Source: Erysipelothrix sp.
GTDB taxonomy: Bacteria; Bacillota_I; Bacilli_A; Erysipelotrichales; Erysipelotrichaceae
Direction of reading: 5' to 3'
NCBI GenBank assembly: GCA_012512455.1
Contig: JAAZEF010000094.1
Span: 1 to 33,084, forward strand
DNA length: 33,084 bases
A program made the position numbers and the translations under genes. Each line of letters begins with the position of its first letter. The stretch's first letter is position 1. The notes under the pieces were generated by a model, which was given only the letters and a program-made list of their open reading frames with translations, was not told where the DNA came from and did no database searches. Below, piece by piece: positions 3,277-23,056 of the stretch.

Positions 3277-4503
3277 TTATTTCTCCTTTAGGTATTGTCT
3301 TACATCTGAAATAAAGTAAAGGGAGCCAGTAATAACGACCACTCCTTTTGTTTCTTTAATGCTTGTTTCAATTGCTTCTTTATAATCTTTGATTATTCTC
3401 ACATGATGTCCAAGAGCTAAGTTTTCTGCGGTGCTTGCTCTTTTGAAATCAAATTCTGTAACAATAATATCTTGAGTAATTGCTTCTAATTTCTCTATCA
3501 TCTTATCATAGTTTTTATCAGCTACTGCACTGAAAACGATGAAAATGGGTTCCTTGAAAAGTTTAAGCGTGTTGATGAGCTCCTCAATTCCAGCTTCATT
3601 GTGGGCACCATCGATAAAGACTGGTGGATTGTCTTGCATTTTCTCAAAACGTCCTTGCCAAAAAGTATTTTGAAGTCCTTGAATAATTGATTGAGTGCTA
3701 ACTTCTAATAGTTGATGTTGATTGAGTTGATAAGCAATTTCAAAAGCTAGTTGGGAATTCTTTATTTGATAAAGAGCTAAGGTTTGAAGATGAATTTCTT
3801 GATCTCGATAGTGATAAGTAATATTGTCGGAATTTAGTTGATAATCTGTTATGGCTGGAGTGATGGTGATCTCTCTTTGAGCTTTATTTTTAAATATTTC
3901 ATTGAGTTGTGGGCGTTGTTCTCCTGTGATCACTAACCCTTCTTCTTTGATAATACCGGCTTTTTCATGGGCGATTTCTTCTAAGGTGTCACCTAATATT
4001 TTCATGTGATCATAACTGATGTTGGTTATGGCACTAACAATTGGTGAAATAATGTTAGTGGCATCTAAGCGACCTCCTAGACCTACTTCAAAAATAGCGA
4101 TGTCTACTTTTTGTTCAAGAAAGTAGTTAATGGCGATGAAAACATCAATTTCAAACATACTTAAAGAGTACTCATCCCAATAAGGCGTTGTTAAATTAAT
4201 ATGTCTGAGCAGGTCTTCATCTGAGATGGATTGATTATTGATTCTGAATCGATCGTGGTGGCTAATAAGATGTGGTGATGTGAAGGTAGCTACTTTATAG
4301 CCTTGGGTTTGAAGAATTGATCGCAGGTAATCTGTAGTGGAACCTTTGCCGTTAGTGCCGCCGATGTGAATAGTTTTTAATTGGTTTTGAGGATTGTTGA
4401 GTGTTGCTGCTAGATTTTGAATGTTTTCTAGCTTATATTCGCTGACGATTTGATATCGATTCATTAGAACCTCTAAGGCATGGTTAATATCGTTGAATTG
4501 CAT
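3277..4503 (-). CDS. folC: Bifunctional folylpolyglutamate synthase/dihydrofolate synthase
   Basis: IHIGGTNGKGSTTDYLRSIL P-loop, TFTSPHLISHHDRFRI, FEVGLGGRLDATNI motifs. Confidence 0.93.
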   Translation of the reverse strand: MQFNDINHALEVLMNRYQIVSEYKLENIQNLAATLNNPQNQLKTIHIGGTNGKGSTTDYLRSILQTQGYKVATFTSPHLISHHDRFRINNQSISDEDLLRHINLTTPYWDEYSLSMFEIDVFIAINYFLEQKVDIAIFEVGLGGRLDATNIISPIVSAITNISYDHMKILGDTLEEIAHEKAGIIKEEGLVITGEQRPQLNEIFKNKAQREITITPAITDYQLNSDNITYHYRDQEIHLQTLALYQIKNSQLAFEIAYQLNQHQLLEVSTQSIIQGLQNTFWQGRFEKMQDNPPVFIDGAHNEAGIEELINTLKLFKEPIFIVFSAVADKNYDKMIEKLEAITQDIIVTEFDFKRASTAENLALGHHVRIIKDYKEAIETSIKETKGVVVITGSLYFISDVRQYLKEK

Positions 4504-5153
4504 TATTCTGTGCTCCAGTCTATTGGTTGTTTATTTATATTTTTAAGAAGTTGGTTAGTTTGTGAGAAAGGCTTTGATCCAAAGAAACCGCGATAGGCTG
4601 ATAAAGGAGAGGGATGACTTGATTTTATGACAAAGTGACCATATTGTACAGCGATTTTTTCGAATTGTTGAGCATGTTTTCCCCAAAGAATAAAGACTAA
4701 TTGATTTGTGTTTTGACATAGTGTTTGAATTGCATTGGTGGTAAATGTTTCCCAGCCTAATCCCTTGTGTGACATGGGTTGATCTTGGCGGACTGTTAAG
4801 GTGGTATTGAGTAGCAAAACTCCTTGTTTGGCCCAGTTTATTAATGATCCAGATTGGTTAGAAATGTTGAGATCATCGTAAAGTTCTTTGAAGATATTGA
4901 TGAGACTTTTAGGAAGTGGTGTGTCTTGTTGGACAGAAAAGCTTAGTCCCATAGCTTGGTTAGGTTGATGATAGGGGTCTTGACCGATAATGACCACTTT
5001 TGTTTTGTCGAACGGTGTATGTTCAAGTGCATTGTAGATTTGATGTTTGGGCGGAAAGATTACGTGTTCTTTTTGTTCCTGTTGGAGTGTTTTTTGTAAT
5101 TGAATGTAATAAGGTAATTGTTTCTGTTGTTCTATAAAAGTTTGCCAGTTCAT
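4503..5153 (-). CDS. ung: Uracil-DNA glycosylase
   Basis: VVIIGQDPYHQPNQAMGLSFSV and SSHPSPLSAYRGFFGSKPF motifs; start set at the ATG at 5153 (ATGA overlap with the upstream gene, GAGG upstream) rather than the track start 5171. Confidence 0.95.
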   Translation of the reverse strand: MNWQTFIEQQKQLPYYIQLQKTLQQEQKEHVIFPPKHQIYNALEHTPFDKTKVVIIGQDPYHQPNQAMGLSFSVQQDTPLPKSLINIFKELYDDLNISNQSGSLINWAKQGVLLLNTTLTVRQDQPMSHKGLGWETFTTNAIQTLCQNTNQLVFILWGKHAQQFEKIAVQYGHFVIKSSHPSPLSAYRGFFGSKPFSQTNQLLKNINKQPIDWSTE

Positions 5154-6460
5154 CGATTTTCCTCTATCCATTGTTGGTATTGTTTAACAATTTCTTCTTG
5201 AGCTTGTTGGGGAGTTAGCTTTTGGCTGTAGACATCTTTTATGGTTTTCGTGATGTCGATGTCAGTGAAGACATCCCAAAGGAGTTTGTTTTGGTTAGCT
5301 GGAGTGGTAACAAAAGGCTTGGTTCGTGCTTGTTGATGGGCTAAAGCTAGTTGACGTTGGCGTAGCGGGATGTTTATAGTTCTTAGTACATTTGAATGAA
5401 TCGCAGGTGTTTTGTTAGTTGTGTTTGTAAGTATTTCTATGGCTTGAGGGGAGCGTAGGAATGTTAAGACTTCATGTCCTGCGGATGGATAATAGGTGTT
5501 TTTATGCATGACCCATCCTTGCACAGATGATAAATGAGTGAGTGTTTGTTGTTGATAACTTGGATAGGCAGTGAATAAGTAGTTGTGTTGTGTAGATGCT
5601 TCTATAATTTCCATGTTGACATATGGTTTGTAGATAGATAAAGGTCCCTTTTCATTTGCGAGAATTGTATCGTATTGCCAAGTGAATTCATTTGGATTAT
5701 TTGTTGGGTTTTTTGAATCCCAGATATAGTCTCCTAATGTTTGAATGAATATTAGACCGTTTAGAAATTCTGTTGAATCAAGGTGAGCTAGATCTAATTC
5801 GAAATCATTGAATGGATACCAGCCATCGACTGTTAAAAGTGGATAGAGTGTATCAAAATCGTTGAAAATTAAAGGGAAAATCACTTCATAGTTTTCCGTT
5901 AGGCTTGAATGATGTTGAAAAAGATTGTCGAAGGTTGCGACATTGTTAAGGGAAAGGTTGTTATTATCTAGAGATGTAATATCGGTAATTAGGGTGTCGC
6001 CTGTAATGAAAGTGGTGATGAATACGGGATGATTTGAGTTGATGTCTTCTGCTAAGGAAAGATTGACTTGTTCAGCGATGATAGGCATTATTGCTGGATC
6101 TAATTTATAAAGATTGTCGAGTGCTAGTGCAGCATGAGATGAATCAAGAAGAAAAATATCTTCACCGATTGTAGAAACTTGATTAGCTTCAATTGTTGAT
6201 CCAACATCGATTTGAAGAAGTGTGGATTTAGTGGGATATTGACTTTTCCAGAGTTGTTCTAATTGTGTTTTTGTCTCTTGAGTAGGGACACGTACTAAGA
6301 TTGTGGCGTTGTCTTCTATGAGAAAATGGCTTGTTTCGATGTCGAAACATACCTTGTTATTATCCAAATTACATTGATTTATTTCCAGGGAAATTTTGAT
6401 TCCCCAAATGGTTGCTAAAACGATCAGCATTATAGCAATAAAAGTGAATATTTTCTTCAT
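5150..6460 (-). CDS. Extracellular solute-binding protein-like (carbohydrate ABC transporter family 1-like), N-terminally anchored
   Basis: 436 aa; N-terminal hydrophobic segment MKKIFTFIAIMLIVLATIWG; C-terminal FTDIDITKTIKDVYSQKLTPQQAQEEIVKQYQQWIEEN typical of sugar-binding proteins; located among maltodextrin genes. Confidence 0.6.
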   Translation of the reverse strand: MKKIFTFIAIMLIVLATIWGIKISLEINQCNLDNNKVCFDIETSHFLIEDNATILVRVPTQETKTQLEQLWKSQYPTKSTLLQIDVGSTIEANQVSTIGEDIFLLDSSHAALALDNLYKLDPAIMPIIAEQVNLSLAEDINSNHPVFITTFITGDTLITDITSLDNNNLSLNNVATFDNLFQHHSSLTENYEVIFPLIFNDFDTLYPLLTVDGWYPFNDFELDLAHLDSTEFLNGLIFIQTLGDYIWDSKNPTNNPNEFTWQYDTILANEKGPLSIYKPYVNMEIIEASTQHNYLFTAYPSYQQQTLTHLSSVQGWVMHKNTYYPSAGHEVLTFLRSPQAIEILTNTTNKTPAIHSNVLRTINIPLRQRQLALAHQQARTKPFVTTPANQNKLLWDVFTDIDITKTIKDVYSQKLTPQQAQEEIVKQYQQWIEENR

Positions 6461-8662: not shown

Positions 8663-9781
8663 TTACCAAGCTAACCCCGCCCTATCAACGGTTTTAATAT
8701 TGGCTTGTTTAAGCCCTTGAAATAGAATGTTACGACTCGCATTAATGTCGCGGTCATGAATTTTATGACAAGATGTACATTGCCATTCTCGAATTGAGAG
8801 TGGCATTTTTTCATGTCTGATACCACAGCTCGAACAAATTTGGGATGAAGGAAACCATCTATCAACATAGACAATTCTTCTTCCATACCATTTTGCTTTA
8901 TAGTTAAGTTTTTCAACAAAAAGTGTCCAAGCCACATCAGCAATGCTTCTAGATAATTGTCGATTTGAAATCATCTCTTTAATTTCTAGTTGTTCGATAC
9001 AAATTACATCGTGGTTTTTGATGATAAGTGTACTTAATTTGTCTAGAAAATATTTTCGTTGATTGAAGCTTTTTTCATAAAGTCTGGCTACTTTTCGTTT
9101 CTGCTTTTGATAATTGGAAGCTTGATACAAAGGTTTGTTATCTTTAATTGCTTTTTCTCTTCGCTTAGAAAGTTTTCGTAGTTCTTTATTAATTTTAGTG
9201 TCCATTTGTCTATTAAAGCGTCTATTTCCAATTTTTTGTCCTGTTGATAATATGGCGAAGTTTTCAAGTCCTAAATCTATACCAACAACCTTGTTTGTCT
9301 TCTTCATTGGTTCTATATTTTCTTTTACAAGAAGAGAAAGGAAATAATTACCAGATGCTTTTTTAGAGAAAGTTAAAGAAAGAATGAGACCTTTAGGATT
9401 GATGTGAACTTTGGCTTTTAATGGTTTGTCAAAGAGTGATATATCTATTTGATATTTGTTAAGTAATTTAATAGATTCTCTGTTCTTAATTCGAAAGCTT
9501 TGTTTACTATAAGACTTACTTTTGAATTTTATTTCATTGATATTCTTAGACTTAATCGCACGATACAGGTTTGCTTGAGCATATTCTAAAGACGTGATAT
9601 CGACTTCTTTAAGATATGGATATTCTTCAATTAATGATTGAAGATTTTGTGCTTTCTTTGTTTTTCTTTGATCTAAGGTGAGATTAAATACTTTACGAGA
9701 GCAACCAAAAGATTGTGCCAAAATTTGTTTTTGTTGGTCTGTTGGATAGATACGAAATTTATAACCTTTATATTGTTCCAT
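8663..9781 (-). mobile_element. tnpB: RNA-guided endonuclease TnpB (IS200/IS605-IS607 family accessory protein), solo element without tnpA
   Basis: 372 aa; RuvC motifs VGIDLGLENFAIL (D), ICIEQLEIKEM (E), HDRDINASRNI (D); zinc ribbon CSSC...CTSC; no neighbouring tyrosine or serine transposase ORF. Confidence 0.9.
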
Positions 9782-18009: not shown

Positions 18010-18038
18010 AAAAAAAGAAAAAGAGTAAGGTGGCTAAC

Positions 18039-20453
18039 ATGATTTTCTTATCCCTACATCAACTAGCGACTATGTGTCAAGGTGAACTAATTAACAGTAA
18101 AGATGCCTATAAAGTAAAAGGCGTTTATATCAATACCAGAGAACATCAAGGTGAAGATATTTTTATTCCTATCATTGGTGATAATTTTGATGGACATCAA
18201 TATGTAGAAAATGCGTTTGAACAAGGCGCAAAGGTCTCTTTGTTTCAAAGAGATCATGATTTTTCTTCACTAGATAAACCTCTCATTTTGGTAGATGATA
18301 CAAGACTTGCTTTGGGAAATCTGGCTAAGGCATATCGGTTGTCGATGAATGCGAGTGTGATTGGTATTACTGGTTCTAATGGAAAGACTTCAACAAAAGA
18401 TATTCTTTATCATTTACTCAATCCTTATTTTGAAGTCAGTGCGACAGTGGGTAATCGTAACAATGATATCGGTTTGCCTCTTACGATATTGGAGAGTGAC
18501 CCTTCTGTTAATCTCTTTATTTTAGAGATGGGGATGTCTGCTTTAGATGAAATTGACTATTTACAAGAGATTGCGATGGCGAGTATTGGTCTAATTACAT
18601 CTATAGGTGCTGCTCATTTAAATGATTTGGGATCTTTGGACAATATCATAAAAGCAAAATTAGAAATTACTCATCACATGCCTGATGATGGTGTGTTGAT
18701 TGTTAATGGAGATCATGAGCGATTTTTAGAGATTTTAAGGAGTTATCAATTAACTCAAAGGGTTGTGACGTATGGACTTAAGTCTTCTAATGATTATGTT
18801 ATTACGGAGACTCATCAATTTAAGGATACCTTAGTGTTTCATTGTGAACAGTTGACAGATAATCCTATTATTGTGCCTTTGTTGGGGAGACATCAAGCAT
18901 TGAATACTTTAGGAGCATTGTTGGTGGGTAAGGAATTACATATACCAATTGAGACCTTGTTGAGTAATTTAGCGAATGTATCAATTACTGCTTCGCGTAA
19001 TGAAGTAGTTAAAATTGGTCAAGCAATGATTATAGATGACTCTTACAAATCAAATCCTGAGGCTTTGACTGAAAGTTTAATGATGTTGTCTGAATTTTCG
19101 AGTCATGATCGTAAAATTGCGGTGTTGGGTGATATGTTGGATTTGGGTCCTAGGGAAATAGAGTACCATCAAGAAATCTCGAGATTGATTGATTCGTTAG
19201 TGATTGATCGCGTGTATACAATTGGTAAGTTGGCTCATCATTTTAGTGATTTTAATACCAAAATATCTCATCATTTTACAAGTCATGATGAACTATTAGC
19301 CGCATTGAAACCATGGTTGAAACAGCCTTCTATTATTCTATTTAAGGGTGCGAATGCTTTACGTTTATTTGATGTTATTGAACAATTAAAAATGGAGGAA
19401 AAGAAAATGAAAAAAGTTGCGTTAATATTTGGTGGAAAGAGTTCAGAGTATCTTGTGTCTTTATCGTCAATTTCTTCTGTGATTCAAAACTTTCCTAGTG
19501 AAAAATATGAAATGTGTTTAATTGGAATGTCTTTAGAGGGACGTTTCTATACTGGAGATTACACTTTAGAGGAAATCGAAAACAATACTTGGTTAGAGAA
19601 TAAAACAAGTCGTGAGGTGGTCTTAAAACCTGGCGATGATTCTTGTTTTATGGCCGTGGATACCTTGGAAGAGACTGTGGTTGATGTGGCGTTTAATATG
19701 ATTCATGGTAAATATGGTGAAGATGGCGTCTTACAATCGTTAATGAAGGCTTCTAATATTTCTTTGACGGGTTGTGATCAACAAAGTTCTATCTTAGCTT
19801 ATGACAAAGATATTACACATCGCTTGTTGGATAATGAAGGAATTCTTAAGGCTAAATATCGTACCTTAACGTCTTCTTTGACTCTTGAACAGTATGGTGA
19901 TTTAACAGATTATTTAGGTCAAAAAGTGATTATTAAACCAGCGCGTGAGGGTTCTTCTTATGGAATTTCAGTGGCGGATAATTATGAAGATTTTAAGATT
20001 GGGTTAGAGGAAGCTTTAAGATTTGATACGAAAGTAGTTATTGAAGAGTTTATTAAGGGCTTTGAAGTCGGTGCAGCGGTATTGGAAAAAGATGGCAGAC
20101 TCTTAGTGGGGGATGTTGATGAGATTGAACTAGCGACTGATTTCTTTGACTATGAAGGAAAATATGCATTCAAAAATGCTCAGATTGTGTGTCCGGCTCG
20201 AATTGATGAAAGTGCGACTCGTATTGTGAAAGAGAGCGCGAAGTTAGTATTTAAACTGTTGGGTTGTCGTGATTTTTCACGAGTGGATTTCTTTTATGGT
20301 GAAGATGGACAGGTCTATTTTAATGAGATTAATACCATTCCTGGGTTTACTTCTCATTCCCGTTTTCCTAATATGATGAAGGGAATTGGCATTGATTATA
20401 AAGAAATAATTGAAACTTTGATTGAGAATGCCTTGAATCGTATTCATGGATAG
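18039..20453 (+). CDS. Fusion: MurF (UDP-MurNAc-tripeptide--dipeptide ligase) + VanC-like D-Ala--D-X ligase
   Basis: Single ORF; MurF half with VIGITGSNGKTSTKDIL and GNRNNDIGLPLTILE; ligase half from about residue 457 (MKKVALIFGGKSSEYLVSLSS, HGKYGEDG, KPAREGSSYGI, NEINTIPGFTSHSRFPNMMKG). ATG 18039 preferred over GTG 18030 (AAGGTGG SD). Confidence 0.93.
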   Translation: MIFLSLHQLATMCQGELINSKDAYKVKGVYINTREHQGEDIFIPIIGDNFDGHQYVENAFEQGAKVSLFQRDHDFSSLDKPLILVDDTRLALGNLAKAYRLSMNASVIGITGSNGKTSTKDILYHLLNPYFEVSATVGNRNNDIGLPLTILESDPSVNLFILEMGMSALDEIDYLQEIAMASIGLITSIGAAHLNDLGSLDNIIKAKLEITHHMPDDGVLIVNGDHERFLEILRSYQLTQRVVTYGLKSSNDYVITETHQFKDTLVFHCEQLTDNPIIVPLLGRHQALNTLGALLVGKELHIPIETLLSNLANVSITASRNEVVKIGQAMIIDDSYKSNPEALTESLMMLSEFSSHDRKIAVLGDMLDLGPREIEYHQEISRLIDSLVIDRVYTIGKLAHHFSDFNTKISHHFTSHDELLAALKPWLKQPSIILFKGANALRLFDVIEQLKMEEKKMKKVALIFGGKSSEYLVSLSSISSVIQNFPSEKYEMCLIGMSLEGRFYTGDYTLEEIENNTWLENKTSREVVLKPGDDSCFMAVDTLEETVVDVAFNMIHGKYGEDGVLQSLMKASNISLTGCDQQSSILAYDKDITHRLLDNEGILKAKYRTLTSSLTLEQYGDLTDYLGQKVIIKPAREGSSYGISVADNYEDFKIGLEEALRFDTKVVIEEFIKGFEVGAAVLEKDGRLLVGDVDEIELATDFFDYEGKYAFKNAQIVCPARIDESATRIVKESAKLVFKLLGCRDFSRVDFFYGEDGQVYFNEINTIPGFTSHSRFPNMMKGIGIDYKEIIETLIENALNRIHG
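19394..19409 (+). promoter_or_regulatory. Internal ribosome-binding site plus ATG at the MurF/ligase junction
   Basis: GGAGG (19394-19398), 8-nt spacing, ATG (19407), in frame with the ligase domain start MKKVALIFGG. Confidence 0.75.
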
Positions 20454-21531
20454 AGCTTTTTTAGAGGTCAATGTTGATGCATTGCGTCATAATATTGAAC
20501 AAATTAATCGTAGTATTGGTCGTTCTAAGATAATGGCGGTGGTGAAGGATCAATGTTATGGCTTGGGATTAGAGGCTGCTTTTTATTGTCAAGAACTAGG
20601 TATTGATTTTTTTGCGGTGGCGACGATTGATGAAGCGATTCAATTGCGTCAATTTGATATTTATCAACCTATTTTGATTTTTGGATATACTCACCCTACT
20701 CGTTTTGATGATTTGATAACTTATAACTTAATACAGACTGCGATTTCTTATGAGTACTTGTTATTGTTGGAAAATTTTCAAAAAGGTATTGAGGTTCACT
20801 TAAAAATAAATACAGGGATGAATCGCTTGGGTATACCTTATGATTTTGATTTAATTGAGTCTTTTTTTACATTAAAAAACATTAAAATTACTGGTATTTA
20901 TACACATCTATTGTCTTCAGATCAACCTGGTGAGGGTCATAAAAAGAGCATTGAACAGTTGTCTCTTTTTGATAAGTTACTTGGTCATTTAGATAATTGT
21001 AAACTTAATTATGGTCTGACTCATGTTCATAATTCGGCAGGAATTGTTTACTTTGGTGACTCTTATGTTTATGACTATGTACGTCCTGGTTTATTGTTGG
21101 CTGCTTCGAGCCGTTTTGATAATTATCGTGAGGTAGTTACTCTGAAGGCGAGAGTGGCGATGGTGAAAGAAGTTTCAGTTGGTGAGAATATTGGTTATGG
21201 GGTGGAGAACACCTTAAATAAGAGTACTAAAGTGGCGACTGTGACGATTGGTTATGGTGATGGTCTACAGCGACGTTTGGCACAGTTGGGCTTTAAGTTG
21301 CGTGTTTCTGGTCAATGGTGTCGTGTTATTGGTAGAATTTGTATGGATCAGTTATTGATAGATGTGAGTGATGTGAATGTCGATATCGGAGATGTTGTTG
21401 AAATCATTCATGATGAATTTACAGTAGATGATATGGCTGATTTATTGGGGTCTATTCCTAATGAGGTGTTGACTCAATTGGGAAGTCGTATTGAAAGGGT
21501 GTTGGTTTATGACGACAAAGAAAGCCTATAA
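20446..21531 (+). CDS. Alanine/serine racemase (PLP fold III), similar to the racemase domain of VanT
   Basis: IMAVVKDQCYG (PLP Lys region), DFFAVATIDEAIQLRQ, YDYVRPGLLL, ENIGYG, GYGDGLQRRL, GRICMDQLLIDVSD; ATG overlaps the fusion stop by 8 bp. Confidence 0.9.
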   Translation: MDRAFLEVNVDALRHNIEQINRSIGRSKIMAVVKDQCYGLGLEAAFYCQELGIDFFAVATIDEAIQLRQFDIYQPILIFGYTHPTRFDDLITYNLIQTAISYEYLLLLENFQKGIEVHLKINTGMNRLGIPYDFDLIESFFTLKNIKITGIYTHLLSSDQPGEGHKKSIEQLSLFDKLLGHLDNCKLNYGLTHVHNSAGIVYFGDSYVYDYVRPGLLLAASSRFDNYREVVTLKARVAMVKEVSVGENIGYGVENTLNKSTKVATVTIGYGDGLQRRLAQLGFKLRVSGQWCRVIGRICMDQLLIDVSDVNVDIGDVVEIIHDEFTVDDMADLLGSIPNEVLTQLGSRIERVLVYDDKESL

Positions 21532-22492
21532 TAAATTAATTGATGATTTAAGAATTGTGGCGGCTATTTTAGTTGTGGCGATTCATACGGCTCCTTTTGT
21601 TGAATTTAATGAAGTGTTTTCATATATTATCACTAATATTATAGGGCGTTTGGCGGTTCCTTTCTTTTTTGTGTTGAGTGGTTACTTTTTATTTAGAAAG
21701 TTTAAATATCTGACGAAGGAAGAACAATATCAATCATTTATTAAGACAGAGTTGTCATTATTGAAGACTTATGCTTTGACGTTTATCATTTATATCCCGG
21801 TGTGGATTTATCTTCATGGGATTGATGTGACGTTGTTTGTTAAGGACTTATTGTGGGATGGCCTTCATTATCATTTATGGTATTTTCCTGCTTTAATTGT
21901 GGGGATTGCGATTGTTTATTTCTTAAATAAGAATCTAAAATTTGACCATATGTTTATTGTGGTGGTTCTACTTTATCTAGTTGGTGCACTTTTTAATGTC
22001 TATGGTCCTTTGTTGCCTGAAGCCTTGGTGAACTTAATGAGTAATACGCGTAATGGTATCTTTTTTGCTCCGTTGTTTATTTTTATTGGTTTGTTTTTAG
22101 CACTAAAGAAATTACGTTTTAATAATGTAATTGTTCTGATTTCTGTAGTTCTATTTTTATTTGAACCGTTATTATTATATTTCACCAATTTATCAGATCC
22201 ATTAAATGCAATGTTTCTTACATTACCAATTACCGTCTATTTCTTGATGACTAAAGTACTCGCTCATAAGGGTAGGACACATAATTCACTCTTTTATCAT
22301 AATGTGTCTTTGTATATTTATGTTATTCATCCAGTGGTCATTTTGGGGAATCGTTTAATTGTGGGTAAGATTTTGAACATGGAATTAACGAACACTCTAA
22401 ATTTTGTGTTGACGACCGTTTTCTCTCTATTGGCAGCTTATGTCTATCAATTTATGAAGGAGTATTATGAAAAAAACAAATCAGTTAACTAG
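21509..22492 (+). CDS. Acyltransferase-3 family membrane protein, similar to the membrane domain of VanT
   Basis: DDLRIVAAILVVAIHTAPF (AT3 R/H motif), GRLAVPFFFVLSGYFLF, YHLWYFPALIVG, TRNGIFFAPLFIFIG; overlaps the racemase 3' end. Confidence 0.85.
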   Translation: MTTKKAYNKLIDDLRIVAAILVVAIHTAPFVEFNEVFSYIITNIIGRLAVPFFFVLSGYFLFRKFKYLTKEEQYQSFIKTELSLLKTYALTFIIYIPVWIYLHGIDVTLFVKDLLWDGLHYHLWYFPALIVGIAIVYFLNKNLKFDHMFIVVVLLYLVGALFNVYGPLLPEALVNLMSNTRNGIFFAPLFIFIGLFLALKKLRFNNVIVLISVVLFLFEPLLLYFTNLSDPLNAMFLTLPITVYFLMTKVLAHKGRTHNSLFYHNVSLYIYVIHPVVILGNRLIVGKILNMELTNTLNFVLTTVFSLLAAYVYQFMKEYYEKNKSVN

Positions 22493-23021
22493 TATGGCGC
22501 TGATTGCGGCGTTGTGTTTTATAGCTTTTAATTATTTTAAAATCGATGTTCATGTGATGGGTGGACGGACCTCTTTTCACTTTGCGAATAGTTTTGTGGT
22601 GTTGGGTGCTCTTTTATTGGGTGGTTTGCCTGGAGGTTTGGCGGGCGCAGTTGGTTTAACGCTGGCTGACTTAACGACAGGTTATGCTCATGTGGCACCG
22701 CGTACTTTTTTTCTAAAATTAATGATTGGTTTAATTGTGGGTCTGATTGCTCATCGTTTTGGTAAAATTAATTCGTTACATAAAACTTCTGATATCCTGA
22801 AATGGAGTATCTTGGCAGGTACTGGTGGTATGATTTTTAATGTGATAGTTGATCCTTTGGTGGGTTATTTATTTAATCGTTTCATTTTAGGAGTTGATGC
22901 TAATCCGGCGACGATTATTGCGACATGGTCTGCTGGGGTGACGGCTGTTAATGGAGTCATTACTGTCGTGATGGCGACGTTGGCTTATATGGCTTTGAGA
23001 AAGATGAAGTTTAAGGTTTAA
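22467..23021 (+). CDS. ECF-type transporter S component, substrate unknown
   Basis: 184 aa, polytopic; FHFANSFVVLGALLLGGLPGGLAGAVGLTLADL signature; AAGGAG SD; overlaps the AT3 gene end. Confidence 0.8.
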   Translation: MKKTNQLTSMALIAALCFIAFNYFKIDVHVMGGRTSFHFANSFVVLGALLLGGLPGGLAGAVGLTLADLTTGYAHVAPRTFFLKLMIGLIVGLIAHRFGKINSLHKTSDILKWSILAGTGGMIFNVIVDPLVGYLFNRFILGVDANPATIIATWSAGVTAVNGVITVVMATLAYMALRKMKFKV

Positions 23022-23031
23022 ATAAGTGTGA

Positions 23032-23056
23032 CCTAAGATAATCTTAGGTTTTTTTA
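23032..23056 (+). terminator. Rho-independent terminator closing the murF-ligase operon
   Basis: CCTAAGA-TAA-TCTTAGG followed by TTTTTTT. Confidence 0.85.

Follow-up and report, generated by a model that had tools for sequence, protein, structure and literature searches.

A conserved fusion of MurF with a VanG-like D-Ala-D-X ligase in two Erysipelotrichaceae genera retains the ligase's own start signal

Results

Organisation of the locus

The window analysed here is a stretch of 33,084 nucleotides from a genome deposited as Erysipelothrix sp. (contig JAAZEF010000094.1 of assembly GCA_012512455.1). On its forward strand a single frame stays open from an ATG at 18039 to a stop codon ending at 20453 and encodes 804 amino acids. 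As the original prediction from the sequence had it, MurF is fused in frame to a D-Ala-D-X ligase. Both enzymes are complete, and there is no linker between them, as the last residues of MurF run straight into the ligase's own methionine at 19407. The fused gene is followed by three further genes of an apparent operon:

18027..18033, + strand: Shine-Dalgarno-like AAGGTGG ahead of the murF ATG, read from the sequence
18039..19406, + strand: MurF half, 456 codons (TIGR01143; Pfam Mur_ligase N/M/C)
19394..19398, + strand: retained Shine-Dalgarno GGAGG inside the fused frame (dG -9.3)
19407..19409, + strand: ligase start ATG, the junction methionine (M457 of the fusion), a Met in all fusions compared
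19407..20453, + strand: VanG-like D-Ala-D-X ligase half, 348 codons and stop (best match VanG 4FU0; PF07478)
20446..21531, + strand: alanine/serine racemase resembling the catalytic part of VanT (NF033131, 4ECL, PF00842), its first 8 nt lying within the fused gene
21509..22492, + strand: membrane protein of the acyltransferase-3 type, similar to the membrane half at the N-terminus of VanT (NF033132 vanT-CELN positions 1-331, E 7e-45)
22467..23021, + strand: S component of an ECF transporter, encoded by the gene that closes the apparent operon (PF07155, E 6e-27; same position in the congeneric genome G001)
23030..23050, + strand: terminator-like stem and T run, likely the operon end (consensus match only)

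A mechanical start at GTG 18030 falls within the Shine-Dalgarno sequence of murF, so that ATG 18039 is the likely start of this gene. The junction reads ..TTA AAA ATG GAG GAA AAG AAA ATG AAA AAA GTT GCG.., and the GGAGG, 8 nt and ATG described in the original prediction are indeed found there at 19394-19398 and 19407-19409.

The MurF half scores 360 bits against TIGR01143 (cut-off 288.6), and the N, M and C Mur ligase domains of Pfam are all detected. Both Pfam domains of the ligase half are complete, with PF01820 covered from 1 to 121 of 121 positions and PF07478 from 2 to 204 of 204. This is in line with Foldseek comparisons, where MurF structures match one part of the protein and VanG structures the other. 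In an AlphaFold model of the fusion (mean pLDDT 93.3, pTM 0.74) the last MurF helix, residues 443-457, leads directly into the first ligase strand, residues 459-465, while the relative placement of the two halves is uncertain given the pTM. As one conserved polypeptide with two complete Mur-pathway enzymes, the protein can, by its sequence, be classed as a bifunctional Mur-pathway fusion.

In the window genome, a draft of 124 contigs with 97.6% completeness and 6.6% contamination, the fusion is the sole MurF above the MurF cut-off and the sole PF07478 D-Ala ligase match. It is therefore a housekeeping enzyme rather than an additional resistance operon. In each of the three related genomes G001, G009 and G063, too, no strong D-Ala ligase match besides the fusion was found.

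Conservation and age of the fusion

The uninterrupted fused frame is shared by four genomes of two sister genera. Relative to the window protein (genome G000) the fusion is 75% identical in G001, which belongs to the same genus, and 55-56% identical in G009 and G063 of the other genus. The idea that the open junction is an assembly or sequencing artefact that deleted a stop codon could draw on the fragmented state of the source, a draft in 124 contigs, but the same open junction in three further assemblies at 55-75% identity leaves it a practically negligible probability, and we reject it.

In a tree of both halves the four fusions are monophyletic with a support of 100, and their sister is the unfused group g84. 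In g84, represented mostly by closed chromosomes, murF and the ligase gene share a frame that is interrupted by one stop codon directly before the ligase ATG. The original prediction had seen a recent loss of the stop codon between adjacent genes. The loss of a single stop between neighbours is borne out, whereas "recent" is not, as two genera share the fusion at 55-75% identity. Since the four fused genomes group together beside an unfused sister, the fusion, on this tree, arose before the two genera split, and a recent origin is rejected for the lineage of the window.

Recurrent fusion within the order

We searched for fused frames in 272 genomes of the family and 43 genomes of a second family (about 315 genomes of the order) and found six more (G028, G060, G119, G081, G101 and G111). 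G060 and G119 are fused while their sister G118 is not, and G081 is fused while its sisters G093 and G095 retain a TAA. The ligase frame of G119 breaks near its end; in G111 the contig ends within the ligase. With G111 absent from the tree and thus not placed, the tree gives at least four further losses of the stop at this point, independent of that in the clade of the window. Across much of the order the murF and ligase genes adjoin with hardly any gap, and they are ancestral neighbours. When a profile of the fused protein was compared with samples of 395 genomes of the class and 392 genomes of the phylum, no fusion was found outside the order; in one genome sampled there (G420) the two genes are adjacent and in frame with a stop between them.

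Two kinds of candidates were discarded. Apparent frames of 1012-1036 amino acids in the second family, which resembled triple fusions, comprise three genes separated by stops, namely murF, one for a lysozyme-like protein, and ddl; a lysozyme-like gene between murF and ddl was recorded at four loci of this family (L127-L130 in G086, G096, G092 and G082). A 922-residue match in G007 is made up of two separate ORFs. In G007 (L133, 422-3190) another Ddl-like ligase is adjoined by a second MurF-like protein, whose N-terminus carries a hydrophobic stretch, and similar matches occur in several genomes of the family. Two fused genomes of the second family, G081 (L162, C10:78807-79403) and G101 (L163, C48:6306-6878), have an extra, separate D-Ala-ligase homologue.

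Retention of the internal start

The hybridisation of the junction Shine-Dalgarno sequence with the anti-Shine-Dalgarno amounts to -9.3 kcal/mol, compared to a median of -7.7 at gene starts, and no signal as strong precedes any of the roughly 195 other in-frame ATGs inside the genes of the window. The junction signal is kept in all ten fusions, at -7.0 to -11.7, despite differences in the encoded residues. Because this start signal is stronger than those of the other internal ATGs and is kept in every fusion, the production of free ligase besides the fusion is plausible.

Alternatively, the fusion may be the sole product, with the signal and the methionine as leftovers or kept for other reasons such as a Lys/Glu-rich coding sequence, whose codons readily yield GGAG-like strings. 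In the four-genome clade alone the excess is modest: the fractions of synonymous recodings that are as strong are 0.19, 0.02, 0.25 and 0.05, so that in two of the four members 19-25% of recodings would do equally well. Over the ten fusions, which are related and non-independent sequences, comparison with synonymous recoding gives a combined p of about 9e-6. Moreover, in the four clade genomes about 2% of the internal ATGs reach a value of -7, yet all four junctions do, despite diverged amino acids (MEE, SEE, KEV and KEI). The junction methionine is invariant in this clade, where the other invariant methionines are M1 and those in conserved motifs. A fusion-only gene is thus a possibility that we take seriously but do not favour. 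The joint retention of signal and methionine favours continued use of the internal start as a reading of these junctions.

Ligase specificity and the adjacent racemase

The best solved relative of the ligase half is VanG (4FU0, E 3e-84). Among all NCBIfam models the VanG model NF000091 also scores best, with 379 bits, and since this lies below its cut-off of 495 we call the ligase VanG-like and not a vanG gene. We take residues D243, F252 and R324 of VanG to be the determinants of D-Ser specificity; these positions fall on D, F and R in 4FU0. The D/F/R triad and an FDYxxKY loop are conserved in the window ligase and likewise in those murF-linked ligases of its family that were examined, while murF-linked ligases of the second family mostly carry G/Y/M at the triad, as in Ddl. 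The D-Lac ligase VanA shares D/F/R but is without the FDYxxKY loop, so that only the loop argues against D-Lac. The predicted D-Ala-D-X ligase, whose product MurF would use, is supported by these data, and X can be narrowed: judging by the specificity residues, D-Ser is a better candidate than D-Ala or D-Lac.

The racemase gene encodes the sole PF00842 match in the window genome. It is closest to VanT_G, its best PDB match is the serine racemase 4ECL, and with 324 bits against NF033131 (vanT-G-Cterm) it stays under the cut-off of 460, so that we refer to it as VanT-like. In VanT an Asn replaces the active-site Tyr of Alr. The window racemase has this Asn (SIPNEVL aligned with SITNELL of VanT_G), as have all murF-linked racemases examined except that of G009, with Tyr in its only racemase. 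In g84 the second, unlinked racemase (Alr) carries Tyr; the combination of linked Asn and unlinked Tyr in the same genomes suggests separate serine and alanine racemases. The loci compared at this position were the window racemase, L076-L079 and L183-L186.

The homologue of the VanT membrane half is a separate gene after the racemase and not a domain fused to it. The same gene order is found in G001, and in G009 this gene was not seen beside the racemase. We also looked beside the ligase for vanXY and for vanRS/U regulators and found none: its neighbours encode the racemase, the acyltransferase and the ECF component. The window genome has two genes of the VanY family, on other contigs.

It is unlikely, though by no means far-fetched, that the ligase makes ordinary D-Ala-D-Ala despite its VanG-like sequence, in which case the locus would have no bearing on vancomycin. 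The enzyme is the only one of its genome and the host must make a dipeptide; the VanG model stays under its cut-off; and VanC2 keeps some D-Ala-D-Ala activity (PMC12004154). This reading is at odds with the D/F/R triad of the family members examined, as opposed to G/Y/M in the murF-linked ligases of the sister family, and with an operon that holds both a racemase with the VanT-type Asn and a VanT-like membrane gene. Judged by these residues and neighbours, the locus appears to be a housekeeping pathway for D-Ala-D-Ser.

Discussion

Fusions within the Mur pathway have been described for MurE-MurF, MurB-MurC, MurG-MurC, MurC-Ddl and MraY-MurG (PMC6420597, PMC4803751). In the papers searched for a MurF-Ddl fusion we found no description of one, and no model of such a fusion is among the NCBIfam matches listed. 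The MurF-ligase protein is a new pairing within this known kind of enzyme fusion. Like the MurC-Ddl protein of Chlamydia, its polypeptide begins with a Mur ligase and continues with a D-Ala ligase. However, MurC and Ddl do not catalyse consecutive steps, while MurF directly uses the ligase product, and the window ligase is VanG-like with its internal Shine-Dalgarno sequence and ATG kept. According to the account in PMC4803751 of McCoy and Maurelli (2005), the Ddl activity of the Chlamydia protein depends on the fusion structure. The MurE-MurF protein of Bordetella, which is bifunctional, elongated and flexible (PMC6420597), also joins consecutive Mur enzymes, but the partner of MurF is MurE and not a dipeptide ligase. 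In MurF-Alr (NCBIfam PRK11930) an N-terminal MurF is likewise followed by a D-amino-acid enzyme of the same branch; there the racemase itself is fused, whereas in the window it is a separate, overlapping downstream gene. The locus resembles D-Ala-D-Ser operons of the vanG/vanC type in bringing together a VanG-like ligase, a VanT-like racemase and a VanT-like membrane protein. It differs from them in that its ligase and racemase are sole copies, linked to murF, in having neither regulatory genes nor vanXY, and in that the VanT halves are split and in reverse order.

We propose that the fused gene arose when the one stop codon separating the two neighbours was lost, at a time before the two genera split. 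Its C-terminal VanG-type half would join D-Ala to D-Ser, and possibly also to D-Ala, and its N-terminal MurF half would attach the dipeptide to UDP-MurNAc-tripeptide. The D-amino acids would be supplied by the adjacent racemase and the VanT-like membrane protein. With the Shine-Dalgarno sequence and ATG of the ligase kept, ribosomes probably make a fusion of about 90 kDa and some free ligase of about 39 kDa. We hold with reasonable, if limited, confidence that this is a conserved fusion of the last two cytoplasmic enzymes of the peptidoglycan peptide, with a VanG-type D-Ser ligase, probable dual products and a VanT-like supply of D-amino acids. More tentatively, a dual-product gene may serve a housekeeping D-Ala-D-Ser wall, the fusion handing D-Ala-D-Ser to MurF beside free ligase, with repeated stop losses, and the locus may explain why Erysipelothrix-like bacteria are intrinsically resistant to glycopeptides.

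A 2022 genome paper dealing with E. rhusiopathiae 319078 gave a vancomycin MIC of 32 mg/L, left the resistance mechanism open, proposed the vex23-vncRS locus as a candidate and deduced D-Ala-D-Ala solely on the basis of murF (PMC9637936). The positions of murF (670 kb) and of the second racemase (73 kb) in G235 are close to those implied by the locus tags of strain 319078, and g84 is therefore probably Erysipelothrix itself. The VanG-like ligase beside murF offers a testable alternative for the intrinsic vancomycin resistance of Erysipelothrix. In addition, these two consecutive enzymes have been fused repeatedly, and each time the start of the second was kept. Such recurrence amounts to a natural experiment that asks whether selection in peptidoglycan synthesis acts on substrate hand-over or on a fixed stoichiometry.

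Elsewhere in the window, an IS605-type TnpB-like protein is encoded on the minus strand at 8666-9781. At 3280-4503, also on the minus strand, a Mur ligase-like protein adjoins an ORF of 222 amino acids (4503-5171, minus strand), possibly forming a MurT/GatD pair.
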